IMG/VR virus record: IMGVR_UViG_3300035670_000009
Location: 124,001-188,000 of that record
From: a virus
Reading direction: 5' to 3' (one strand)
DNA length: 64,000 bases
Part shown: in pieces, positions 8,270 to 47,471 of the stretch
Layout of the letters: each line of letters begins with the position of its first letter
Numbering within the stretch: position 1 is the first letter of the stretch
Notes under the pieces: generated by a model
What the model was told of the DNA's origin: nothing
The model's database searches: none
Seen by the model: the letters and a program-made list of their open reading frames with translations, nothing else
Translations under genes and position numbers: made by a program

Positions 8270-9082
8270 TTAGAACCCTCCTTGGCTGTAACGCTTATCG
8301 AGCATGGCCTGAATCTTGGCGGCGCGCTGGCTCACGGCGCCTGGCGTGATGTTCAATCGCTTGGAGATCTCCTGAGTGCTGGCCGCGCGACGGCCGTTGC
8401 GCCCCAAAGTCATATCCATAATCAGCTTGTCGGTCGGGCCCAGATCTTCGTAGACGAAGTTCGCCCAGGCGTCTGCGCCGCGGTTGGCGCCGGGGACCGT
8501 GCTCGCTACGCCGCCGTCCTGGCTCTCGTCGTCGTTTTCAAGAATCGTTGCGCTCTCGGGAAGCGGCTGGTGAAACGCGCGGATCTTCTTGATTCGCCGG
8601 GCCGAGAGGTTTGTGTGGTCGGACAACTCGTCGTCAGTCGGGTCGCGCCCCAGGCGGTCGCGCAGCTCGTTCTCGCTTTCGGAAAGCCGTTGGAAGTCGA
8701 GGCCCACCTGCTCGGGCACCGAAATGATGTTCTGTTCTTGAGCTGACAGGCGGCGCAGGCTTTGAAGCTGGCTGAGCAGGTGCGTCCGGACGTTGCCTTT
8801 TTTGGGGTCGTAGCTTTCCATAGCCTTTAGTGCCATCAGCCGCGCCCGTGTCTTAATCGTCGGGCTCGGGTTGTTCGCTGCGTAGCTGGAAACGGCCGTA
8901 TCGATGACCGGCTGCACCGTTGAGAGCAGCCGCGTGTTTACTTCCGGCGTGCGCGTAGTCTGCCACTGCTGGTAAACCGAATCGAACTCGTCGCCGACGC
9001 CGGTCGGGTTCTTAGGCTTGGAAAACGGCGGGGCGATGTCGCCCAGAATTGACGGCATACCTTGAAGTTTGTCTTGGGGCAT
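8270..9082 (-). CDS. Sigma-70 family factor inside the baseplate operon
   Basis: A 270-aa protein with sigma-70 layout. An N-terminal helical stretch (about residues 45-75) leads into a region-2-like segment, RARLMALKAMESYDPKKG then VRTHLLSQLQSLRRL, matching the family pattern in which a SYDP.KG turn precedes the -10-binding helix. SVPEQV follows and then a region-3-like ELRDRLGRDPTDDEL. The C-terminus (about 215-265) has a region-4 helix-turn-helix, STQEISKRLNITPGAVSQRA. No region 1.1 is present. Sigma factors direct core RNA polymerase to promoters. The gene is flanked by the hub and wedge genes, with GAGGTTGAACA before the ATG. With the phage RNA polymerase in this window it could form a holoenzyme; alternatively it could redirect host polymerase. 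Confidence 0.85.
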   Translation of the reverse strand: MPQDKLQGMPSILGDIAPPFSKPKNPTGVGDEFDSVYQQWQTTRTPEVNTRLLSTVQPVIDTAVSSYAANNPSPTIKTRARLMALKAMESYDPKKGNVRTHLLSQLQSLRRLSAQEQNIISVPEQVGLDFQRLSESENELRDRLGRDPTDDELSDHTNLSARRIKKIRAFHQPLPESATILENDDESQDGGVASTVPGANRGADAWANFVYEDLGPTDKLIMDMTLGRNGRRAASTQEISKRLNITPGAVSQRAAKIQAMLDKRYSQGGF

Positions 9083-29151: not shown

Positions 29152-30078
29152 TCACTTGAAATCGACGCGAGCGAGACCGTTCGTGTGACCGAACGAGCCG
29201 CCCTGCGTGTTGTAGGCGAAGTACTCGAGCATGTACGCCTCACGACGGATGTACATCGTGGTGGGCTCCAGCTCGTAATTCTTGCCAATGAACTTGGGCG
29301 ACGCGAACATGAACATCGAGTCGTCCGGCACAAGGTCGCGCTTGATCGTGACGATCCAGCGGCAGTTGAGGAAGTTGGTCTCCGCCCAACCGTTCTTGAT
29401 GATGTCCTGCGAGAAATCACCGCCCATCTCGTCGCGGCCGAACTTCAGCAGCTCTTTGATGGTGATGTTGTTCACCAGGCAGGTCTCGACCTCGAAGTGC
29501 GAGGGCGTCCGCGGCATAACCTTCAGCGCGTCGACAATCGTCTCACGCGTGATGCCGCCGTGGATTTCCTCGTACTGCACGACACCGGACGCAACGTTCG
29601 CCACGCCCGGGGTCGGGAGGACGGCGTTGAACGCGGCGATGAACTTGGAATCCTCTTCCGCCAGCATGTCCTTGATCATGTTGTCGGAAAGGACCTGACG
29701 GATGTCGATCACGTAGGTACGCAGCTCGTCGACGTCCTTCACAGCGCGGGGCGACACGATCCGGTCAAACATGACGCGGTATCGCGGGCCACGGATGTAG
29801 AAGTTGATCGGGAGCGTCGCGAACGGGAGCGACACAGCCGCCGGGGAGTCGGGTTCCTTGTCGACCACCTTGACGGGCTTGTCAGTGTCAACCTGACGGT
29901 CAAGCTCGTCGTTGGTGATGGTCAGCGGCGGCATAATCCGCCGGTAGAACCCGTCTTCACGCATCTTGGTGCGCGTGAAGTCGTTAACAGCGTCAACGGC
30001 CTGCTTCTGCATGCCGGGGGTGTCAAGCTGCTCGAAGAGCGTCTCGTTGAGCAGCTGGATTTCTTGCGGAGTGGGCAT
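29152..30078 (-). CDS. Major capsid protein
   Basis: A 308-aa protein in the head cluster with HK97-type capsid character. The N-terminal helix LLNETLFEQLDTPGM leads into VNDFTRTKMREDGFYRRIM. A long middle reads LPINFYIRGPRYRVMFDRI. A VETCLVNNITIKELLKFG region and C-terminal beta-strands (YIRREAYMLEYFAYN) complete it. It lies downstream of a scaffold-like and a prohead-protease-like gene, the usual head order. The Shine-Dalgarno is presented in a hairpin loop 10 nt before the ATG. Followed by a strong hairpin. Confidence 0.8.
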   Translation of the reverse strand: MPTPQEIQLLNETLFEQLDTPGMQKQAVDAVNDFTRTKMREDGFYRRIMPPLTITNDELDRQVDTDKPVKVVDKEPDSPAAVSLPFATLPINFYIRGPRYRVMFDRIVSPRAVKDVDELRTYVIDIRQVLSDNMIKDMLAEEDSKFIAAFNAVLPTPGVANVASGVVQYEEIHGGITRETIVDALKVMPRTPSHFEVETCLVNNITIKELLKFGRDEMGGDFSQDIIKNGWAETNFLNCRWIVTIKRDLVPDDSMFMFASPKFIGKNYELEPTTMYIRREAYMLEYFAYNTQGGSFGHTNGLARVDFK

Positions 30079-37788: not shown

Positions 37789-40164
37789 TTAAGCGCTTGC
37801 GACATTGGAGAGGTCGGTGTCTGAGCCGCCTTCTTCTGGATACGGCTCAATCGTCTTTTGCTTGAGGAAGAGAATTACGTCGCCCAGCATTTCAAAGGCG
37901 TTACGCAACGAATCTTCCAGCTCTGGCATATCAGATTTGCCATAACGATCAGCGAACCGATCACCGTGCCAATAGAACATGAACAAAATGCGGCCCAGCT
38001 TGTCGAGGCCATTGGTCAGCTCGCCCATATAACGATCGACCAACGAATCGTCCCGGACAGCGCGCAGCATCGAGCCGATCATCGCCGTGTCGAACACTTC
38101 TTTCTGGCCTGTCTCGGCGGCCTGCATCACGCTGCGGATATCTTTTTTGTCCAGTCGCGTGTTCGGGTTATAGATCTGCCGATCGGTGTTGGCGGCCGCC
38201 ATGTCCGACACCGGCATACCAATATCTATGCCCATTTGAGTTGGGACGTCGGCGCCCATGATTGTTTCGCCGCCCATCACCGGACCCGGATCGGTCGGCG
38301 CCGTTGGGCCCTGATTGACCATCATCGGCGCGCCGTACGGATTGGCATACTTCACGCGGCAAGCGAACTTCTTTTTTGCCGCCGCTGTCTTGAGGATCGC
38401 GCGAGCAGCGTCCTCACGCAGACCATGATGCTCAACAAGCGTCACCAGCGCGGCAATCGGGCTGCGCGCGGCTTCTTTGTTGATCGTGACTTCTGTGCCG
38501 TTGTGGTAGACCTCGAGCGCGGCGGTCTTGCCTAGCAGTTCAAGCTGCGCGTCAGCCAGGTTGCCGGGCATCAGCGGCGGCATCTCGCTCTGGCCGCATC
38601 CGCACGCGCCCTGGTCCTCGGCCGTCTCATCGTCATCTTCGCCGGGAGCGCACTTGAGCAGCTTGTAGCCCTCGGGGACAAAAATGTCGCCCATCGAGCT
38701 GCGCAAACTGGAACCTTTCTTGCCGTTGAGATGGATCCGGACGCCGTCGCGCCACTTGTCGTAGTTCAGCGGGTCGGTATAGCAGCAGCTGGAGATGTGA
38801 CCCTTTGGCGGAAACTTCGAATGGTCCTCCATGTGGACCTCGTAACTCGTCACGCCGAATTCGCTCTCGCCGTACTCGCGGATCACGCGAACCGGAACGG
38901 TGGCGTCGCCGTTCTTGTGCACCAACATGTAGCGCCCGCTCGACGGAAGGCTGTTTGCGTCTGGTAAGCCGTTAAACCACTCTTCTTCTTCCTTGTCGGT
39001 CGGGCAGGCGACACAAAACACCTGGTCTGCGCGCGTGTTAATCCACTCAGGCTTGCCCTCGGTACGGACGACGGTGACAAAGTCCGAACGCTTCGCGGGC
39101 CCCATCGGGAACATGGCGATGTAAACCCGCTCAATGTTGCCCGGCTTGACGAGGATGTCGTAAAGACCCGAGCTGGTCGGGTTCCAAAGTTTCTTTTCAA
39201 CCTGAATGTGATAGGGAATCGACACGTTGTCCCGCTCGCGCTGATCGAGAATCAGCACGCCGTCGCGGAGCAGCTTTTCCTGGTCTTCCTCGGTAGTCTC
39301 CGGCGGAAGCTTGGTCTGCATTGTGACGTTCATCGTGATGATCTTGAGCCCTGCGACGGCCGGGCTCTTTTCAGGTGCCTCCGACAGCACACTGGCGATC
39401 TTCGGGCGATTTTCGCGTTCCTTGGCCGCCGCGATGGCTTCCTTGATCACGCCCAGGCCGTGAAACTCATCAAATGCCTTGGCCAGCGCCGGGGCGTCTT
39501 GGAACGTCTTGACGAGCATGTCGATCGTCGTGACGCGGGCTTCTTTAAGAAACCGCGGCAGATCTAACGCCCGGCCGATTTCCTGAAACACCAGCGCCGT
39601 GTTCATCGTGGCGCACTTAGCAAAAGTCGGCATCGCGGCCGTCATCATCTCGCGCAGCGTTGGCTTGGCCGAGCCAAACTTCGCCGGACTGCGAGAGAGC
39701 TGCGTGAAATCGGGCTGCCGCTGGCCCATTGACGACCGATTGCGGTCCACCGCGCTGCCCAAAATGTTGGGCTTGCGGTTCACCAAGTAGTTAATCCAGT
39801 TTTCTTTAAGCGGCACGAACATGTCCTGGTTTTTGATGTACAGGAGTTCGTGACCTTTAAGGTCGCCGTTAAGAAAAAAGACTGGAGCATAAAGCCAATT
39901 CGAGCCAACTTTGAACGCAAAAACGCCAATAGCTTTGGTGTTTTCGCGATTGCGGTCTAGCAGCTGAAAACCGATTTCGTGGTCCAGCAGCCGCGGAGCT
40001 GAATCACGCAGATAGGCGTGCGCCAGGTTACTGAACGCCTGCTCAAACGACGTGGAGTCGCCTTTGCCGCCAAAATCGGCGGCTTTCGTTTGCGTCCGGT
40101 CGTGCAAACGTACTACGTTCAGCCAGTGCGCCTGGGACGATTCAGTCTTCTTGCGGTTGTACAC
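37789..40164 (-). CDS. Large protein next to RNA polymerase genes (791 aa), unassigned
   Basis: A 791-aa protein immediately downstream of the beta-prime C-terminal gene. N-terminal part is mixed alpha/beta (FQLLDRNRENTKAIGVFAF). The middle has VKPGNIERVYIAMFPMGPAK and a CACGCGQSE-like cysteine patch (about residue 540). Acidic and disordered C-terminus. I chose the GTG at 40164 because it lies 8 nt after GGAGG; a GTG at 40173 abuts the ribosome site. It may be a virion or head-associated protein or a partner of the polymerase. No family recognised. Confidence 0.6.
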   Translation of the reverse strand: MYNRKKTESSQAHWLNVVRLHDRTQTKAADFGGKGDSTSFEQAFSNLAHAYLRDSAPRLLDHEIGFQLLDRNRENTKAIGVFAFKVGSNWLYAPVFFLNGDLKGHELLYIKNQDMFVPLKENWINYLVNRKPNILGSAVDRNRSSMGQRQPDFTQLSRSPAKFGSAKPTLREMMTAAMPTFAKCATMNTALVFQEIGRALDLPRFLKEARVTTIDMLVKTFQDAPALAKAFDEFHGLGVIKEAIAAAKERENRPKIASVLSEAPEKSPAVAGLKIITMNVTMQTKLPPETTEEDQEKLLRDGVLILDQRERDNVSIPYHIQVEKKLWNPTSSGLYDILVKPGNIERVYIAMFPMGPAKRSDFVTVVRTEGKPEWINTRADQVFCVACPTDKEEEEWFNGLPDANSLPSSGRYMLVHKNGDATVPVRVIREYGESEFGVTSYEVHMEDHSKFPPKGHISSCCYTDPLNYDKWRDGVRIHLNGKKGSSLRSSMGDIFVPEGYKLLKCAPGEDDDETAEDQGACGCGQSEMPPLMPGNLADAQLELLGKTAALEVYHNGTEVTINKEAARSPIAALVTLVEHHGLREDAARAILKTAAAKKKFACRVKYANPYGAPMMVNQGPTAPTDPGPVMGGETIMGADVPTQMGIDIGMPVSDMAAANTDRQIYNPNTRLDKKDIRSVMQAAETGQKEVFDTAMIGSMLRAVRDDSLVDRYMGELTNGLDKLGRILFMFYWHGDRFADRYGKSDMPELEDSLRNAFEMLGDVILFLKQKTIEPYPEEGGSDTDLSNVASA

Positions 40165-40168
40165 AGCG

Positions 40169-40184
40169 GCCACCTCCGTGCGGC
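40169..40184 (-). promoter_or_regulatory. Shine-Dalgarno hairpin upstream of the 791-aa gene
   Basis: GCCGC-ACGGAG-GTGGC on the minus strand forms a 5-bp stem with one G-T pair and places GGAG in the loop, 8 nt before GTG. Confidence 0.6.
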
Positions 40185-40247: not shown

Positions 40248-42122
40248 TTATGGGCGCCATCCGCTCGTTGCGCCAGTCATTCCAAAGGTTTCTCCGCGGG
40301 CCAGCCCTGGCACAAAGCTGCTGCCCGCGGTGTCGCTAGTTGCGCCCCGATGCACGCTGCTAAGCAGGCCGCGTTCTTGGTACGAGCCGAGCATACGCGT
40401 CATCCAGTCCGGGTCGTTCGAAATATTCGCCATGCCGCGAACCATTTCTGGCTGAAAAGGCGGCTGCTGCTTGTGCGCCTCGATATTGTTAATGCCGTAT
40501 TTTTGCAGCGTATTAACGACGTTACGGCCAATTTTCGTGCCAATTGAATAGTGCAACACGGGCCGCTCCAAATAATGGCCCTGCAGGCTCTTGGGCGCGC
40601 CTGTCACACTGCCCGCGCGGGGTTGCCAATTTCGCTCGATCATCGAATATGGCACAACGTCGTCTGGGTTGTATTCGCCATGCTCGTCGGTCATACGGAC
40701 GTGATTCACCAGCCCGCGCGCGAGCAGCTCGATGTTGCGGCGGTGGCCGTTGACGTTAGAGTTTTGAAGTACCTGCCGCATGGCTTGAACGAAATACCGG
40801 CGGCCCTCGCCGATGCCCTTGTGGCGCACCACTTCGGACGGATTAGGCATGCCGTCGGTGAGCGAGTCACCTGCCTCGATCTCCTGGCCCTTTTTGACGG
40901 TGATCTCGCGGTCCACCGGGATGTAGTGGTCCTGGCCGCCGACCTGGACGTAGTAACCGCCCTGGGGCGCCTCCTTGATCTCTTGGACGTGGCCGTCAAC
41001 TTGGGCGTGCGTGGCGCCATTGGGGTATTTCTTGGGAACCTGGACCAACGCGTTGATCGCTTTGAAGCCGCCAATAGCGCTCGCGCCACCGACGCCGCCG
41101 GAATGTTTAGACGAGATCTGCGCTTGGGTAACTGGTTCCGACAGAGCTTGCGCTGCGGCGATGCCAACGTAGTCGCCAATAGGCGGCATTTTGCCCTTCT
41201 CGCGATAGCCGACGTCTCTGGCGTACACGCCGCCGTCGTCTGGGCCGCCGACCAACGGACTGCGAACCAGCAGATCCTGCACGCCCATTCCTTTGATATC
41301 TTTCAAAATCTTCGGCGTCAGAACAGTATTGCGCTTGTATGGTCCGACGGGTCGGGCGAGCAGCGCGCCTTCGTTGTCCATGTCGTCGACGTCAGTGGGA
41401 TAGCCGCGGTCGTGCGCGGTGGCATTGCGCTCCTGATCGTCGTCATCGTCGGCGGTGACGAGCAGCCGATGCGTCATTTGGCTGAGCTGCTTGCCGAAAA
41501 AACCCGCGTCCGCAGTAGCCGTCTTCAGGTCGAGCACGCCCTTGCGGGCGCCAAAGGCGCCCGCAAAATACTCTACGGGCCGTAAACCCTGGCCGTAGCC
41601 GCGCAGTACGGGAATAGGAATAGGCTCGTTTTTATGGTCGACGTACTGCAAGTCTGCGCCGATAAGTGAGTTGAGGCTGAACTTGTTTCCGCGGCTAACG
41701 CCGTGGACCTGGTGAGCCAGCGGGTTGTCCGTTGCCTTGGCTTCTTCGTAGACCTTTTCAACGAGGTCTTTTTGCGCGGTCGAGGCGAGCTGGAGCAGCT
41801 TGAGGTTACGCGTTTTCTCGTCGAGCGCGCGGTCGGCGAGAATGCCGCGGAGCTGCATCTGCACTTTGTGCTGCGCCTCCTTGGCGGCGACGGTCTGCTT
41901 GATGTCCTTCAGCCCGAACGAAAGACCACCCGCCGAATAAGACGTGTCGCGGGCCACGTCGTGAAGGTTCTTCATGACCTCCCGATACTTGTCGGGATGC
42001 TTTTCGGCGAGCTGCGTCGCGAGATTACCCATGTCTTTCTTAGTGAGGACGCGGTTGTAGTCGCGCAGATCTTCCGGCAGCGCTTCGTTAACGAGAATCT
42101 GGCCGAGTGTGGTTTTAAGCAT
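40248..42122 (-). CDS. RNA polymerase beta-prime, C-terminal half
   Basis: A 624-aa protein equivalent to the C-terminal half of bacterial beta-prime. It begins MLKTTLGQILVNEALPEDL, aligning with the TTVGR region after the active centre. GLRPVEYFAGAFGARKGVLD (about residue 184) matches the GLTPQEYFxSTHGARKG motif of the bridge-helix/trigger-loop region. VRSPLV and then GDYVGIAAAQALSEPVTQAQ (about 324) match the conserved GEAVGIIAAQSIGEPGTQ. The bacterial zinc-binding cysteines around SPLTC...GVCxxCYG are absent (SPLVGG...GVYARDVG). The N-terminal half lies in a separate gene 43101-47471. Start follows the upstream TGA closely. Confidence 0.9.
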   Translation of the reverse strand: MLKTTLGQILVNEALPEDLRDYNRVLTKKDMGNLATQLAEKHPDKYREVMKNLHDVARDTSYSAGGLSFGLKDIKQTVAAKEAQHKVQMQLRGILADRALDEKTRNLKLLQLASTAQKDLVEKVYEEAKATDNPLAHQVHGVSRGNKFSLNSLIGADLQYVDHKNEPIPIPVLRGYGQGLRPVEYFAGAFGARKGVLDLKTATADAGFFGKQLSQMTHRLLVTADDDDDQERNATAHDRGYPTDVDDMDNEGALLARPVGPYKRNTVLTPKILKDIKGMGVQDLLVRSPLVGGPDDGGVYARDVGYREKGKMPPIGDYVGIAAAQALSEPVTQAQISSKHSGGVGGASAIGGFKAINALVQVPKKYPNGATHAQVDGHVQEIKEAPQGGYYVQVGGQDHYIPVDREITVKKGQEIEAGDSLTDGMPNPSEVVRHKGIGEGRRYFVQAMRQVLQNSNVNGHRRNIELLARGLVNHVRMTDEHGEYNPDDVVPYSMIERNWQPRAGSVTGAPKSLQGHYLERPVLHYSIGTKIGRNVVNTLQKYGINNIEAHKQQPPFQPEMVRGMANISNDPDWMTRMLGSYQERGLLSSVHRGATSDTAGSSFVPGLARGETFGMTGATSGWRP

Positions 42123-42123
42123 C

Positions 42124-42363
42124 TCACGGCTTCCAGAGCATCTTGTCGATCGGCTTGGGTGTGAGGTCGTTGACCACTACAGTCTTATCAACGCCGAGAA
42201 CGCGAAGAAGATTATGAAAGTCGTCATCGCCAACGTGCGAGCAGATGATGTGATCGTCATGCTGCAGCGCCACGTAGATCGGGTTTCCCAGGTCATCTTC
42301 AACGATGACGCTGTGCGCCCGCTGCTCGTGTGGCTGCAGGTTGTGTTGCAGCTTAACGCGCAC
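42124..42363 (-). CDS. Small protein between the beta-prime halves (79 aa)
   Basis: A 79-aa acidic, beta-rich protein beginning MRVKLQHNLQPHEQRAHS and ending KPIDKMLWKP. Its GTG start lies inside the end of the Pro-rich gene, with GGAG 8 nt upstream. It sits between the two halves of beta-prime, so it could be a small polymerase-associated subunit or simply a passenger. It is read 1 nt before beta-prime C. No family recognised. Confidence 0.6.
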   Translation of the reverse strand: MRVKLQHNLQPHEQRAHSVIVEDDLGNPIYVALQHDDHIICSHVGDDDFHNLLRVLGVDKTVVVNDLTPKPIDKMLWKP

Positions 42364-43087
42364 GCTCGAGGCTCCTGAACAACGCCGCCACGGCCGCTGC
42401 CTTCAGCTGCGTCTCTGTCGGCGCGTCCGGGTTCTGCTCGGCAAATTGGGCCAGCGGTTTATCCCACCAATGCGCCATTTTTCCGGCCGACGGGTCCATC
42501 GGTGCCTGGCTCGGATCCATCGGCCCGCCCGGGGGCATCGGGCCGCCGGGGGGCTGCGGACCAGCTGGCGCGTTGGGGTCCTGGGGCGGCGGGGCCATCG
42601 GGCCGCCAGGTAATGCCGTCTCGGCAGGCGGCGCGCCGGTTGTGCCCGGCGGAAGAACGAGCGACTCGGGCGGAACCTGGACCCCCATCGCGTTCATAAT
42701 TGCCGTTAGCTGCTGCTGCATGTTATAGAGCCGATAGTCAAGCATCTGCATCATCTGCTCGGGCTTGAGTTTTTGCTGGCCAGGAACTCCGCCCTGCGGC
42801 GTGGCAGGCGGCATCGGGGCCGGAGCGGCCGCGGGAGGAGCGGCAGCTGTTGCGGCGCCAGTCGGATCCTGCGAGGGGTCAATCGGCGCAGCGCCCATGG
42901 CGGCCGTGGCAGGATCGACGGGCTGCGCAGCGCCCTGAACGCCCAGCTGCGAAGGGTCGGGAGCTTCGCCGCCCATTGGAGGCGCGCCCTGAGCGGCCAT
43001 CATGGCAGCATCCGACGGCACGACCGCGGACTTCTCGAACGCGTGACGAGCCATCTTTAGCAGCTCGGGATTGACCGTGAAACTCAT
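42353..43087 (-). CDS. Proline-rich protein between the beta-prime halves (244 aa)
   Basis: A 244-aa protein with a short helical N-terminus (MSFTVNPELLKMARHAFEK). A long Pro/Ala/Gly-rich disordered region follows (GPMAPPPQDPNAPAGPQPPG), interrupted by a helical QMMQMLDYRLYNMQQQL near residue 145. The C-terminus is helical again (TQLKAAAVAALFRSLERAR). Located between the beta/beta-prime N fusion and beta-prime C. Disorder plus a central helix suggests a scaffold or adaptor; possibly it links polymerase to capsid proteins, which is speculation. The start follows a short GGAG hairpin. Confidence 0.6.
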   Translation of the reverse strand: MSFTVNPELLKMARHAFEKSAVVPSDAAMMAAQGAPPMGGEAPDPSQLGVQGAAQPVDPATAAMGAAPIDPSQDPTGAATAAAPPAAAPAPMPPATPQGGVPGQQKLKPEQMMQMLDYRLYNMQQQLTAIMNAMGVQVPPESLVLPPGTTGAPPAETALPGGPMAPPPQDPNAPAGPQPPGGPMPPGGPMDPSQAPMDPSAGKMAHWWDKPLAQFAEQNPDAPTETQLKAAAVAALFRSLERAR

Positions 43088-43090
43088 GGG

Positions 43091-43102
43091 AACCTCCGTG
43101 TT
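43091..43102 (-). promoter_or_regulatory. Weak Shine-Dalgarno hairpin before the Pro-rich gene
   Basis: AAC-ACGGAG-GTT on the minus strand has only a 3-bp stem, but the ACGGAG loop matches the family. Confidence 0.35.
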
Positions 43103-46100
43103 AACTCTCGACTATATGCACCGGGGTATCGACCTCAATCTCGCCTCGCCGATAGGCCTTAATGGCGTCCTGCCGTGACTTATATACCCGCGGCTTCGCG
43201 CGTTTGTCGACCCGGCTGCTGGCCAGGTAAATCCCGGACTGAAACTCAGCCTGCGGAATATAGTGCGCTTTGAAGTTAGCCGCCGCAAACAAGTTTTTTG
43301 AGGGAAGCATCTTTTCGACGGCTTCCTTTGCCGCGTCGTCCGTGCTAGGAACGTGATACTGCATCGCGTCCCCGTCGAAGTCGGCGTTAAAACCCTTGGT
43401 AATGACCGGATTGACCTCCATCACCTTGTTCTTAGTGAGCTTTGGGTAGAAGGCCATCATACCGTATCGATGAAGCACCGGCGCACGGTTGATTACAATC
43501 GGCCGGGACGACATCTGCCGCTCCAGCTCCGCGTGCGCCTCCTTGTTGCGGTCCTCGACGTGCTGGAGGGCCTGCATCCGCGGCAACCCCCGCCGCACCA
43601 AGCCGCGCACCACGAACGGCTTGTAGACCTCCCAGGCTTTGTCCTCGGGCAGCGCCACCTCGTCCATGTCCAGGTCCGGGTTTGGCGTGATTACGGCGCG
43701 GCCCACCAGGTCGACCGTGGTGCCTAGAAGTTTGCGTTGAACGGTGCCGTACTTCGGCGAACTGCCGAAAATGTGCTTCAAGAATCCCTTGACCTGCCGC
43801 TCCTGATTCTTGGGCTGCGTCGGATCTCCCAGGCCAGAGACCGCCTTCATCGCGTCATACAGGCCGAGGCGCTCGTTGCCGTACTCCGCCAGGGCGCCGG
43901 AGGCGTCCTTCAGCGCGCTGTTTGAGTCGATCAACTCCTTGTACAGATAATTCGCGTCAGCCACGAGCGGGAGCTTCTTGGCGCCCATCGTCGAGACCGG
44001 CCGGAACAACGGCGGCAAGACGGGCATCTTGGTGAGCATCCACTCCTGGGGATGAATTCCCTGGCTCTCGGCGGCCTTGAGAAAACCGAGCTTGCGCACG
44101 GCGGCGTCGCGGAGCGTTTTGCGGCCCGACTTAATGTCTTCTCGGCACTGTTCAATAGCCTTGGGAAGATTAATCCGGCCAAGCGCGTCTTTAATCGCGC
44201 TAGGACCCGACTTGTCGAACAGCTGCGTCTCGCCCGCCAAGACAGAGCGAAACTGCTTTTCGGTAAGTCCCAAAACTCGACGAATTGGCTCTTCCATAAC
44301 CGGATTGGGCATCGGCTCGTGCAAAGATATCTTTGCCCAACGATTTCCGCCGTGTCCGCCGGTTAATTTCTCGTCGAATAGGCCGCCCGGAACTGGCTTC
44401 AATCGTCCTTTCCAGTCCACTGTTTCAGAACTGGTGATTTCTCGATCTTCAGCCAGCTGATCGACGTCTTTGTCGGCGATGGCCATGATGTGCGTTTTAG
44501 TACCGGTGCGGACAGTGTTAATGCCGCTGGCCCGCAATTGATTGACAAATTTCTCATAAACGTGCGGCACTTTGGGCAGCGGCGGCGTATAGCCCGACAT
44601 GAACTGTGACCAGTACTCGGGGTTGGCCTGCCCGCGGACCATCTTTGCGTCACGGATGACCTTTCCGGCGCCGTGGCTTAAAAGCGCGCCCAGGTCCAGC
44701 ATGCCAACGCGCTTGGCGCCCTCCGAGCCGCCTTTAGCGGGAGTTCCTTCTGCCGTGTACGCGCCCATTGCGCGACCCTGCCCCTTAGACTCCGACGTGT
44801 GGTGAAGTTTCATAAAGAACCGGTGGCCGGTCAGCACGCCTTTGATCTTACGACCGGTCTCCGGATCAATGACGTCCTCAGTGTCGGAGAGGCCGTGCTT
44901 CCCAAGCTCGTTCTGCGCAAACGCAATGATGTCTTTTTCGCTGTCGAAGTCCTTTATCTTGAAAGGCTGTCCGGTTTTCGCGGCGACTTTACCCAGTGCA
45001 GCTTCGATAACCTGAGAGGCATTTACGCGAGAGATCAGCCCCAGCGGCGAAACCAGAACCTCCATCGGGCTGCCGTCCTTGTCGTGCGGCATCTGGTGGT
45101 CCGGGACGATGTCGGCAACAACGCCTTTGTCACCAAAACGCCCTGTAAGCTTGTCGCCCACCTGCATCTCGGCGGTGCTTTTCACGACGACCGACACGCC
45201 CTTATCAGTGTGCTCGACGTCAGTGACGATACCCGGCGAGTGATGATCCCAGGTGATCGTATCATTACTGAACGCGCCCGCGCGTCCGCGGTGAACTTTG
45301 CCGTAAGTGGTTTCCTTGGCTTTAGCCTGCAGCACCAGCGGGTCGCCGTAGTTGACTACGGTCCCCTTTTGAATAGCGCCCTTGTCGTCGAACTGGGCCA
45401 GCGTCTTCTTGTCGTACTCAGAGGGGAAGAGCGACACGAAAGCTTTCTTGCCAACGTGCGTGTTGTCGCTCCACTCAGCCTCGTGCTGGTACATGTGCTG
45501 GCTAGTGAGCTTCTTGGCCGCCGACTCCGAAATCACCACGGCATCTTCGTAGACCTTGCCCCTGAAAGGAAGGTAGCCAACGCGAAGGTTCTTGCCCAAA
45601 GCAGCTGAGCCCTGCTTGTCGGTGAAGTTCGAGTGCGCCAAAAGCTGCCCGGGCTTAATCGTGTCGCCCGGCTGCACAGCTGGCGTCTGGTGCCAAAAGG
45701 TCTTGCGGTTGAACGGCATGTCGTTGTAGAGATCGACTGTCGATTTGTTACCGTCTCGATCGCGGAGCACGATCTCGTCGGGCGACACGGAAACAACCTG
45801 GCCGTGGAACTGGGCCTTCACGGCGCCAAGCTTTTCGCCCATCTCGTCTTCGTGGCTGATGCCGTCCTTGTCGACAACAGCCGACTGCACGAAGGGCGCT
45901 TCTGCGTCGTTCAAGGGCAGCGCTTGGGTAAACATGCGGCTGCCCATGATCGCGCGCTGGCCCTTAATCATGCTCTTGAGCGGCAGCATGTTCGAGAGCG
46001 CCGAGAAGGTGCTGTCCATGTGCGGCAGAGAATATTGAACCTCTTCCCGCGGCATGTACTTCATCTTGCCGCCCACGAGAGCCGCGACCATCGGCAGGTC

Positions 46101-47471
46101 GGTTTTCTCCTCGCCAGGAAACGCCACGGGCATGTCGGCCAGTTCGCCCGGCGTCTTGTATTCCTGCGCGCCGGTCTGCATGTTGCGCACCGGCGTATAG
46201 ATCTTGCCGTCAGAACCCTTGACGGCGCCCCGCGCGAAGCGCATGTCGACGCCCGCTTTGCCCGACTCCGGCGTGCGCAGAAAATCGATGTAGCCAAGGT
46301 GGCTGGGCTGCACGGCGCGGGATTCCACCGGCACTGCGTCCAGCGAACCGATGCCGCCCTCGCCCATACGAGTCACGCGGTTCTGGTGGTCGAAGATTTC
46401 GGCCGGGTTAATTTCTTCGAGCGAGCTGCCCAAGCCCGAGCCAATCAACGCAGCATTGATCGCCTTGTTGAAGAACCCCGTAGGCACGTGGTCAAGATTT
46501 TTCTTCGCCGTGGCCTTCCAAAGCAACTTGCGCAGCGCCTGCTTGTCTTTACTGAAGCGCTCAGCAATCAGGTCCTCGGGTCCGACAACGCTTTGATATG
46601 CCATTGCGTCGCGGTCGTCTGGATCGGCCTCTTTGCGATTAACGGCAATGAGCTTTTTCGTAATGTCGAGAATCGCTTCGGGGGTAAGGTTCTTGTATTC
46701 CTTGCCAAGAGTGCGCCGCGTAACGTCGGGGTCGAGTTCCATGCGGGCAAACTCTGTCGCAATAGCTTGCTGCTTAGCGGCCGCGTCCAATCCCGGAGTT
46801 TGCTTGTAAACAAGTCGCTGGTAGAGCTTGTCGAGAGTGCCCGCGTCGCCCTTCTCCATGTTGACGGCGGTGATCTCGTTGCCCCAAGCGCCGCGGATAT
46901 CGGCATCTTTGGCGCCGAGCGCTTTGAGCAGCGGCATCAGCGGAATCTGGGCCTGGCCAATGTTAATTTTCATCACGCCGGTCTTCGGGTCGAGGAAGTA
47001 CCGGTGCATGCGTCCCTTGCCGGGCAGCACGTTAACGTGCGCCTCCAGCTCGCCGTTGTCTTTCTCGCGCGTGTAGACGCCCGCCTTGAGCCGCATCTGG
47101 TGGGCCAGGGTGTACTCGACGCCCCGGTTCACAAACGTGCCCGAGTCAGTGAGGTACGGCACGTGCGCAATCGTCTGCTGACGTTTGGCGATCGGCTGCC
47201 CGGTGGCGTTGTCGATTAAATTCCAAGTGCCGGTGAGCCGCCGGTGCAACGAGTTTCCGGTAAGAACGGCCCGTTTTTGATCGCGCTTGTTGTAGCGCTC
47301 CGGCCCCGTGTAATTCACGTCCGAAAGTTGGAGCGTGTAGAGATCGTTTTTGATCGGCTCGATCGCGCTGGCGCTTTGGAGCGCGCGATCAAAAATGCCG
47401 GAACGCAGCGCGTGGATGTCACCAAATGCGCGGTGTTGCGGCGGCGTTTGCCCGAGAATCGAGTCTGGCAT
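43101..47471 (-). CDS. RNA polymerase beta fused to the N-terminal half of beta-prime
   Basis: The longest gene here, 1456 aa. The first ~1000 residues follow the order of bacterial beta: TDSGTFVNRGVEYTL (about 107), an SHLGYIDFLRTPESGKAG core segment near 390, IMGSRMFTQALPL (about 508), EDAVVISES (about 640), GDKLTGRFGDKGVV (about 770) and a C-terminal clamp-like GSEGAKRVGMLDLGALLSHG. It then runs into beta-prime: WMLTKMPVLPPLFRP (about 1145), LLGTTVDLVGRAVI (about 1252), PIVINRAPVLHRYG and the catalytic NADFDGD (1362-1368, at 43388-43368). It stops at VHIVES, just where the separate C-terminal half resumes. Beta-prime N-terminal zinc and clamp parts are largely missing. Confidence 0.93.
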   Translation of the reverse strand: MPDSILGQTPPQHRAFGDIHALRSGIFDRALQSASAIEPIKNDLYTLQLSDVNYTGPERYNKRDQKRAVLTGNSLHRRLTGTWNLIDNATGQPIAKRQQTIAHVPYLTDSGTFVNRGVEYTLAHQMRLKAGVYTREKDNGELEAHVNVLPGKGRMHRYFLDPKTGVMKINIGQAQIPLMPLLKALGAKDADIRGAWGNEITAVNMEKGDAGTLDKLYQRLVYKQTPGLDAAAKQQAIATEFARMELDPDVTRRTLGKEYKNLTPEAILDITKKLIAVNRKEADPDDRDAMAYQSVVGPEDLIAERFSKDKQALRKLLWKATAKKNLDHVPTGFFNKAINAALIGSGLGSSLEEINPAEIFDHQNRVTRMGEGGIGSLDAVPVESRAVQPSHLGYIDFLRTPESGKAGVDMRFARGAVKGSDGKIYTPVRNMQTGAQEYKTPGELADMPVAFPGEEKTDLPMVAALVGGKMKYMPREEVQYSLPHMDSTFSALSNMLPLKSMIKGQRAIMGSRMFTQALPLNDAEAPFVQSAVVDKDGISHEDEMGEKLGAVKAQFHGQVVSVSPDEIVLRDRDGNKSTVDLYNDMPFNRKTFWHQTPAVQPGDTIKPGQLLAHSNFTDKQGSAALGKNLRVGYLPFRGKVYEDAVVISESAAKKLTSQHMYQHEAEWSDNTHVGKKAFVSLFPSEYDKKTLAQFDDKGAIQKGTVVNYGDPLVLQAKAKETTYGKVHRGRAGAFSNDTITWDHHSPGIVTDVEHTDKGVSVVVKSTAEMQVGDKLTGRFGDKGVVADIVPDHQMPHDKDGSPMEVLVSPLGLISRVNASQVIEAALGKVAAKTGQPFKIKDFDSEKDIIAFAQNELGKHGLSDTEDVIDPETGRKIKGVLTGHRFFMKLHHTSESKGQGRAMGAYTAEGTPAKGGSEGAKRVGMLDLGALLSHGAGKVIRDAKMVRGQANPEYWSQFMSGYTPPLPKVPHVYEKFVNQLRASGINTVRTGTKTHIMAIADKDVDQLAEDREITSSETVDWKGRLKPVPGGLFDEKLTGGHGGNRWAKISLHEPMPNPVMEEPIRRVLGLTEKQFRSVLAGETQLFDKSGPSAIKDALGRINLPKAIEQCREDIKSGRKTLRDAAVRKLGFLKAAESQGIHPQEWMLTKMPVLPPLFRPVSTMGAKKLPLVADANYLYKELIDSNSALKDASGALAEYGNERLGLYDAMKAVSGLGDPTQPKNQERQVKGFLKHIFGSSPKYGTVQRKLLGTTVDLVGRAVITPNPDLDMDEVALPEDKAWEVYKPFVVRGLVRRGLPRMQALQHVEDRNKEAHAELERQMSSRPIVINRAPVLHRYGMMAFYPKLTKNKVMEVNPVITKGFNADFDGDAMQYHVPSTDDAAKEAVEKMLPSKNLFAAANFKAHYIPQAEFQSGIYLASSRVDKRAKPRVYKSRQDAIKAYRRGEIEVDTPVHIVES
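44325..44332. repeat. AGATATCT dispersed palindrome, copy 10
   Basis: Perfect 16-bp palindrome GCAAAGATATCTTTGC (44321-44336). It is coding in the polymerase gene in the Lys-Ile-Ser frame and identical to the copy at 36050. Confidence 0.8.

Follow-up and report, generated by a model that had tools for sequence, protein, structure and literature searches.

The window analysed here, a stretch of 64,000 nucleotides corresponding to bases 124001-188000 of the 203,910-base IMG/VR virus record IMGVR_UViG_3300035670_000009 (G000), carries on its minus strand two genes for the large subunits of a multi-subunit RNA polymerase (RNAP). Beta and beta' are separate genes in nearly all cells. In this phage, beta is fused to the N-terminal half of beta' (beta'N) in a protein of 1456 amino acids (aa), and the C-terminal half of beta' (beta'C) is a second protein of 624 aa. 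Judged from their sequences, the genes encode a cellular-type two-barrel RNAP core in two polypeptides. It is probable that this core works without alpha and omega, that it is packed in the virion together with a sigma-like protein as a holoenzyme, and that it goes back to a full fusion of beta and beta' that was later broken once. Packaging, the partnership with the sigma-like factor, early transcription and assembly without alpha are inferred for this phage. The elements of the locus are as follows.

43101..47471, minus strand: RNAP large subunit, 1456 aa, beta (residues ~1-985) fused to the N-terminal half of beta' (~990-1456); Pfam, PHROG and PDB matches, structure model
44487..44519, minus strand: beta/beta' junction, residues ~985-995; alignment, with protein residue 990 (model residue 431) opposite E. 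coli beta' 17
43368..43388, minus strand: NADFDGD catalytic loop, residues 1362-1368; alignment
42353..43087, minus strand: putative 244-aa protein rich in Pro, Ala, Met and Gln, between the RNAP genes; conserved in close relatives
42124..42363, minus strand: putative 79-aa protein with a GTG start; conserved in close relatives
40248..42122, minus strand: RNAP small subunit, 624 aa, C-terminal half of beta', including bridge helix and trigger loop; Pfam and PDB matches, structure model
41538..41552, minus strand: GARKG of the bridge helix, residues 191-195 of the 624-aa protein; alignment
41103..41105, minus strand: trigger-loop histidine, residue 340 of the 624-aa protein, equivalent to E. 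coli H936; alignment

The two subunits and the position of the break

The initial annotation of this DNA had read the 1456-aa gene as a series of beta motifs running into beta' through NADFDGD, and the Pfam matches, the motif positions and the alignment agree with it. The protein matched Rpb2_6 (E 4.6e-49), Rpb1_2 (E 5.6e-26) and Rpb2_3 (21.2 bits, cut-off 21), and Rpb1_1 and Rpb2_2 scored below the Pfam cut-offs. The rest of beta' had been placed in a second gene past two short ones, and the 624-aa protein indeed matched Rpb1_5 (E 3.5e-23) and contains GARKG. A single PHROG profile of 1216 positions is shared between the two products, the larger covering positions 139-540 and the smaller 612-1095. 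Against PDB sequences, the 1456-aa protein aligned with bacterial beta over residues 82-1009 and with beta' over ~1061-1453, and the 624-aa protein aligned with beta' from its first residues. The profile search proposed in the annotation as a check has thus matched both subunits (Pfam, PHROG), and a sequencing error is ruled out for this locus.

In comparison with Salmonella RpoB and RpoC, the end of beta (VPHVYEKFVNQLRASGIN) passes into the start region of beta' within ~10 residues, so that the join is nearly seamless. Past the junction the protein matches E. coli beta' from residue 17, and the zinc ribbon that would normally follow ~50 residues later is deleted. Conservation was followed in an alignment of 56 fused phage proteins, 32 of the split type and 24 full fusions, in which all of beta and beta' lie in one protein. 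The four cysteine columns of the N-terminal zinc ribbon of beta' are gaps in all 56, and the segment measures 10-16 residues as against 43. Most rows retain the second zinc site of beta' (C814-C898), which this phage and its closest kin have lost. The catalytic residues are preserved throughout: beta R678, D814, K1065, K1073 and R1106, together with beta' R425, P427, D460/D462/D464 and H936, occur in 56/56 aligned phage proteins. The aspartate triad and the barrel lysines K1065/K1073 are those of a two-barrel RNAP, with which the models agree, and the bridge helix and trigger loop are recognised in both alignment and model. Less conserved are beta E565 (53/56), E813 (39/56) and H1237 (30/56), and in the split clade the trigger-loop R933 has mostly given way to Ser, Asn, Gly or some other residue.

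The position of the break was determined from AlphaFold2 models, calculated with 54 sequences from the window and the relatives' loci as input. The model of the fused protein covers residues 560-1456 (mean predicted local distance difference test score, pLDDT, 88.6), and beta'C was modelled separately (mean pLDDT 88.0). The beta' part of the fused model fits E. coli beta' from 16-18 to 553 with Z 21.7-22.5. The best match of the beta'C model (Z 32.6) is S. aureus beta' 557-1188, and its match to E. coli starts at 569. The two models thus place the break between residues 553 and 569 of E. coli beta', just after the catalytic barrel, which bears out the proposal that the large gene stops at the end of the active-centre half of beta'. 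All listed structural matches hit the beta' part only, and model residues 1-430 are identified as beta from their sequence. A viral model-structure search listed phage and giant-virus RNAP subunits with TM-scores of 0.19-0.38 of the query, which were not used as evidence. No phiKZ or AR9 chains were among the PDB and structure matches listed, which carries no weight as a test. The fused phage protein ends opposite residue 552-560 of the cyanobacterial gamma chains, which measure 617-626 residues; cyanobacterial beta'2 chains begin aligning at about residue 15-18 of beta'C. Exact identity with the cyanobacterial split was therefore rejected, the two breaks being near but at different sites (~15-65 residues).

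The gene boundaries look real, since the start signals are normal and the spacing is tight. On the minus strand, the 1456-aa gene (47471 to 43101) is followed by the 244-aa, 79-aa and 624-aa genes (the last from 42122 to 40248). After the stop of the 1456-aa gene comes a ribosome-binding-type CACGGAGG-TTCCC-ATG, the ATG being the start of the 244-aa gene. The 79-aa gene overlaps the 3' end of the 244-aa gene, and the start codon of beta'C lies one base past the stop of the 79-aa gene. The 244-aa protein had no Pfam or PHROG match.

Relatives and particle proteins

Relatives were collected by scanning viral contigs five times; the queries were fused proteins or beta'C, and each scan retained the best 80 loci at most, with tallies that overlap between scans. 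The first (45 loci) gave 39 loci with a fused gene and a separate beta'C, two running off the contig, one without beta'C in the stretch and three with beta only; for the best 80 loci of the second, the corresponding numbers were 71, 3, 6 and 0. The third (78 loci) yielded 70 of the fused and separate type, and eight with the upstream part cut off, outside the stretch or partial. Among the best 80 loci of the fourth scan, 54 had the fused gene and a separate beta'C and 11 were full fusions, the remaining loci being without beta'C in the stretch (11), running off the contig (2) or holding beta only (2). The fifth scan brought 79 new loci, of which 77 were full fusions and two were cut into several open reading frames (ORFs). 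Altogether, at least 139 distinct complete genes join beta and beta'N without beta'C. Of these, 136 end at the break, and the other three (L302, L305, L306) are broken inside beta'N instead. Whole beta is present in 131 of the 136, of which 121 have a separate beta'C ORF in the stretch examined, and in five (L132, L144, L146, L200, L211) beta is broken further upstream. Full fusions comprise at least 76 distinct genes, 75 with whole beta. Clustering at 90% identity left 112 split-type and 75 full-type clusters, and the same break recurs in relatives down to ~30% identity. The initial annotation had omitted both these relatives with whole beta and beta' in one protein and the sigma-like gene in the window.

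Among 50,697 phage records, the fused protein is covered to 80% or more in four, namely Salmonella phage Arash and Vibrio phages D69, D181 and D148, the last known from search matches alone. The fused gene of D181 contains a group I intron (Rfam RF00028, 100.7 bits; L050 11431-11711), next to which lies a homing endonuclease ORF. Separate beta and beta' genes occur in Cobetia phage Carin-5 and Yersinia phage GN1, and Carin-5 retains the zinc-ribbon cysteines. PHROG 24349/25354 were not taken as evidence of phages in which beta and beta' are two full-length proteins, because several 'phage' records of the public set look bacterial. By eye, the 'phage' records OR844998, OR846602 and MT836236 read as bacterial rpoB-rpoC and contaminate phage RNAP searches.

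In-frame inserts were seen at several conserved RNAP sites (L206, L209, L025-L027, L031, L039, L011, L127, L129, L148, L210, L377), and those of L206 and L209 are regarded as inteins because of the Hint and LAGLIDADG domains inside them. The break in the fused genes of L144 and L146 falls at position 920 of the beta profile, and the second part carries ~42 additional residues; this is possibly a split intein, and the L209 insert lies at the same place. Inteins, the group I intron and broken forms indicate that mobile elements act on the fused gene, and intron traffic has been proposed as the cause of such breaks in jumbo phages (PMC7598289). Translation table 11 renders the full fusions of L384 and L385 as several collinear ORFs, for which stop-codon reassignment is a possible cause. 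C-terminal extensions of beta'C of ~590-750 residues were observed in L114, L146, L188, L190, L192 and L193, that of L188 containing a P-loop domain (AAA_18) and DUF5661; a fusion of beta'C with a helicase was not found in the long genes of L114, L188, L190 and L146 (E <= 0.01). Fused RNAP genes also occur on contigs of genome records named Desulfovibrio piger, Desulfovibrio sp. An276 and uncultured Desulfovibrio (L307, L308, L310), which offers a clue to the hosts and to cellular carriage. A join of L316 with L308 (from An276) was rejected, as the stretches have no overlap.

Phage Arash (OQ632216, PMC10585845) has the same fusion with the same break in gp206 and gp216, and its particle has been analysed. 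Three further genes of the window have homologues there.

8270..9082, minus strand: sigma-70-like protein, 270 aa, homologous to Arash gp10; probably serves the RNAP as initiation factor
37789..40173, minus strand: 794-aa protein homologous to gp218 of the Arash particle; follows beta'C directly on the downstream side
29152..30078, minus strand: major capsid protein, homologue of Arash gp226

The RNAP genes sit among virion genes, since the capsid gene and other homologues of Arash virion genes neighbour them. Homologues of the Arash capsid, portal and large terminase, the Caudovirales marker genes, are present in G000. In the Arash particle proteome, gp206 gave the most spectra of all proteins, and gp216, gp10 and gp217 were present; the paper calls gp206 beta and gp216 beta' (PMC10585845). 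Peptide densities were computed from Table 2 of that paper for 28 of the 116 reported proteins, chosen by annotation. Spectra per residue amounted to 2.31 for the fused RNAP, 2.00 for beta'C, 2.00 for the sigma factor gp10 and 2.43 for the helicase gp217; these values are about equal, and the helicase may be as numerous as the polymerase. The four proteins had a median of 8.2 unique peptides per 100 aa (range 6.6-10.3), compared with medians of 1.05 for 16 proteins annotated as intracellular enzymes and 3.8 for seven annotated as virion proteins (range 2.1-9.8). The RNAP pieces, sigma and helicase are therefore within or above the density of virion proteins and far above 15 of the 16 enzymes. 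Such spectra and densities, along with the location of the RNAP genes among virion genes, point to a packaged holoenzyme rather than carry-over.

The product of 8270-9082 resembles Arash gp10, annotated as RNA polymerase sigma factor (E 3.6e-18), and matches Sigma70_r3 with 35.5 bits (cut-off 25.3), region 4 remaining below its cut-off. The distribution of this protein was followed in 31 hand-chosen RNAP-bearing records, mostly the longest, of which 29 are from IMG/VR (including G000) and two are Arash and D69. It was found in 30, the miss being G027 (which holds L394); PF04539 matched in 30 of the 31, above cut-off in 22. A helicase of the Snf2 (Swi2/Snf2) type, homologous to Arash gp217, is present in 18/31 records. 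The initial annotation had seen no alpha or omega, and neither alpha (PF01000) nor omega (PF01192) was detected in any of the 31 records, with controls matched in 13 and 14 of 14. For beta'C (PF04998), G000 contains one gene only, although a far-diverged second set could escape such a search.

A k-mer search for promoters in 75 upstream regions brought up the palindrome AGATATCT, which is hardly a promoter, as it is spread over the whole genome and also lies inside genes. G000 holds 42 copies (e.g. at window positions 411, 5879 and 44325) against ~1.5 expected from base composition; 32 of the 41 intervals measure 2-8 kb, and the copies stand inside and outside genes with A/T flanks (AWAGATATCTWT). 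Pooled L003-L047 contain 63 copies against 7.3 expected, and no copy was found in five of the ten relatives counted singly or in the three Arash stretches counted. The pattern would be in keeping with a site of a phage partition or chromosome-organising protein.

Comparison with known polymerases

Among known systems, Arash is the nearest, although its subunits are only 33% (gp206) and 25% (gp216) identical to those described here. It shares the gp10 sigma homologue and the order of beta'C, gp218 homologue and capsid gene. Unlike this phage, it has nine genes between the RNAP pieces, six of them on the other strand, carries a helicase gene after beta'C and keeps the second beta' zinc site; its RNAP pieces are annotated plainly as beta subunits. 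The RNAPs of phiKZ and AR9 are likewise multi-subunit phage enzymes without alpha or omega, with beta' broken after the catalytic barrel and a packaged form, and the phiKZ-type beta' breaks are said to coincide with the cyanobacterial break (PMC7598289). As the initial annotation had maintained, they differ in that both subunits are split there, with no fusion; they also form two RNAP sets and have no recognisable initiation factor (PMC7598289), whereas this phage has a whole fused beta, a sigma-70-like gene and one PF04998 gene.

In the yeast linear plasmid proteins K2ORF6p and K2ORF7p, a beta-beta' fusion is accompanied by a separate small C-terminal part of beta', but there beta' is divided between beta'a15 and a16 (archaeal-like), the clamp is largely absent and the kinship is with poxviruses; division of the fusion was not tolerated (PMC6211774). 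In this phage, the break is at E. coli beta' 553-569 and the N-terminal beta' region is present, and the plasmid enzyme may be read as analogous to the phage form. The crAss-like phi14:2 gp66 and P23-45 RNAPs are also two-barrel phage enzymes in one chain, some virion-borne, with very distant sequence and another architecture (PMC10770324). Cyanobacterial RpoC1-RpoC2 have a nearby break, ~15-65 residues further on, and no fusion. The fused rpoBC of Helicobacter and Wolbachia has the fusion trait only, without the split.

The mReC polymerases (PMC7481178) resemble the present one in coming from large metagenomic tailed phages and in having beta and beta' that can be aligned to cellular subunits and form a branch of their own; the combination of fusion and split is undescribed in the parts of that paper considered. 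The initial annotation regarded this combination as unfamiliar. No description of the architecture in phages was recognised in the open-licence literature searched, but the combination is not unique: cultured Arash, D69 and D181 (with the gene interrupted) possess it, and the yeast cytoplasmic plasmids have an analogous fusion with a different break (PMC6211774).

Alternative explanations and meaning

The order of fusion and fission was approached with two trees, both calculated without archaea or eukaryotes. The first (63 rows, LG+G4) comprised 56 fused phage rows (32 split, 24 full), five bacteria and two other phages, and the second (34 rows, LG+C20) 28 fused phage rows (15 split), four bacteria and two other phages. 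All fused phage rows group together with a Shimodaira-Hasegawa-like approximate likelihood ratio (SH-aLRT) support of 100 in both trees, apart from the bacteria and the other phages, and thus form a branch of their own outside cells, like mReC. The split form is one clade, with a support of 98 (32 rows, LG+G4) and 100 (15 rows, LG+C20), and the full-fusion group obtained 84 (24 rows, LG+G4) and 64 (LG+C20). The shortest history is a full fusion followed by a single cut, because the split form is one clade and the alternative needs re-fusion. Beta and beta' would have been joined at full length with loss of the beta' zinc ribbon, and one later break after the catalytic barrel would have released the C-terminal half of beta' as a gene. 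The reverse order, in which beta' was in two genes before its N-terminal half joined beta and the one-piece phage proteins are later re-fusions, appears unlikely. The weakly resolved full-fusion clade would allow it, and cyanobacteria and phiKZ-type phages have beta' breaks near this place (PMC7598289), with cyanobacterial beta'2 chains starting to align at ~15-18 of beta'C. However, the cyanobacterial break is a different site, the beta'N/beta'C boundary is seamless in full fusions such as L271, and LG+C20 places weakly joined full fusions beside the firmly joined split clade; moreover, this order takes one step more than a full fusion with one fission. That the boundary arose from a frameshift, a stop-codon error or a decaying gene can be practically dismissed. 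The several ORFs of L384 and L385, the five upstream breaks in beta and the three inside beta'N could be taken as signs of decay, but at least 131 distinct genes with whole beta end at the break, 121 of them with beta'C in the stretch examined, cultured phages share the layout and the start signals are normal. A sequencing error or pseudogene at the locus was ruled out by the conserved boundary across relatives.

As to function, the enzyme could be a non-virion RNAP for middle and late genes, like the phiKZ nvRNAP, its presence in the Arash particle being carry-over. Its genes lie in a block of virion genes and may be expressed late; the Arash authors named carry-over of abundant proteins as possible, and their table includes many intracellular enzymes, most of the compared ones with 2-3 peptides (PMC10585845). 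This is nevertheless improbable, slightly more so than the reverse order of fusion and split, as the RNAP pieces and sigma reach the peptide densities of virion proteins while 15 of 16 enzymes are far lower, and the genome has one gene only for the C-terminal part of beta' (PF04998). A better, though still tentative, possibility is that the enzyme is an already published mReC polymerase whose gene layout was merely undescribed. The mReC set consists of Caudovirales from IMG/VR and metagenomes whose beta and beta' branch deeply, and its filter (hits of both COGs, >=800 aa, NADxDGD) could let a single fused protein through (PMC7481178). On the other hand, the parts of the paper considered treat beta and beta' as two proteins and contain 'fused' and 'fusion' once each, for crAss-like phages only, and the three contig names printed there are absent among the contigs listed by our scans, at most 80 loci each. 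The mReC set is a probable parent lineage of this RNAP.

Several observations weigh against a packaged holoenzyme derived by fusion and then fission, beyond the carry-over named by the Arash authors. The particle data come from Arash only, a distant relative (33% identical in the fused protein, 25% in beta'C); the compared rows were picked by the analyst; the RNA ligase gp143 is an enzyme with high peptide density, and a second sigma-like gene of Arash, gp196, is missing from the particle table. Models of sigma-70 regions 2 and 4 found nothing in a genome-wide search (E <= 0.001), and as only region 3 passes its cut-off, the sigma-like factor is divergent. Sigma-70 consensus promoters occurred at chance level in the two 20-kb stretches scanned, and the region upstream of the capsid gene, aligned between this phage and ten relatives (one further, partial row being dropped), had no conserved promoter-like block. 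The order of fusion before fission rests on parsimony, given the support of 84 and 64 for the full fusions, and unfused relatives may be under-sampled, since the scans began from fused proteins or beta'C.

The packaged two-polypeptide holoenzyme is still the reading we prefer. In it, the covalent beta-beta' link would replace the alpha scaffold, and the 624-aa protein would supply the bridge helix and trigger loop, docking on the fused protein after the catalytic barrel. These two proteins would form a holoenzyme with the sigma-like protein (8270-9082), which would be packed in the virion, delivered with the DNA and used to transcribe the first phage genes. Transcription in infection probably starts without the host polymerase, because particles of a cultured relative are reported with the same enzyme.

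For the wider group, we lean, with less assurance, towards a joint picture in which a large group of tailed phages carries in its virions a self-sufficient transcription machine of fused beta-beta' without alpha, omega and zinc ribbon, together with a packaged sigma-70-family factor and partly a Swi2/Snf2-type helicase, and in which the fused enzyme of one clade was later cut after the catalytic barrel, near the cyanobacterial and phiKZ-type cuts. If true, these virions would hold a holoenzyme of bacterial type, and nature would have run an experiment on the role of alpha. The phage RNAP can still be aligned to cellular enzymes, and its gene boundary is the same in cultured Arash. It can now be tested how a beta/beta' core assembles without alpha, whether one tolerant site lies behind the repeated breaks after the catalytic barrel, and whether phages inject a ready sigma holoenzyme. 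The mReC dataset may also need rereading, as beta and beta' there may be one gene.

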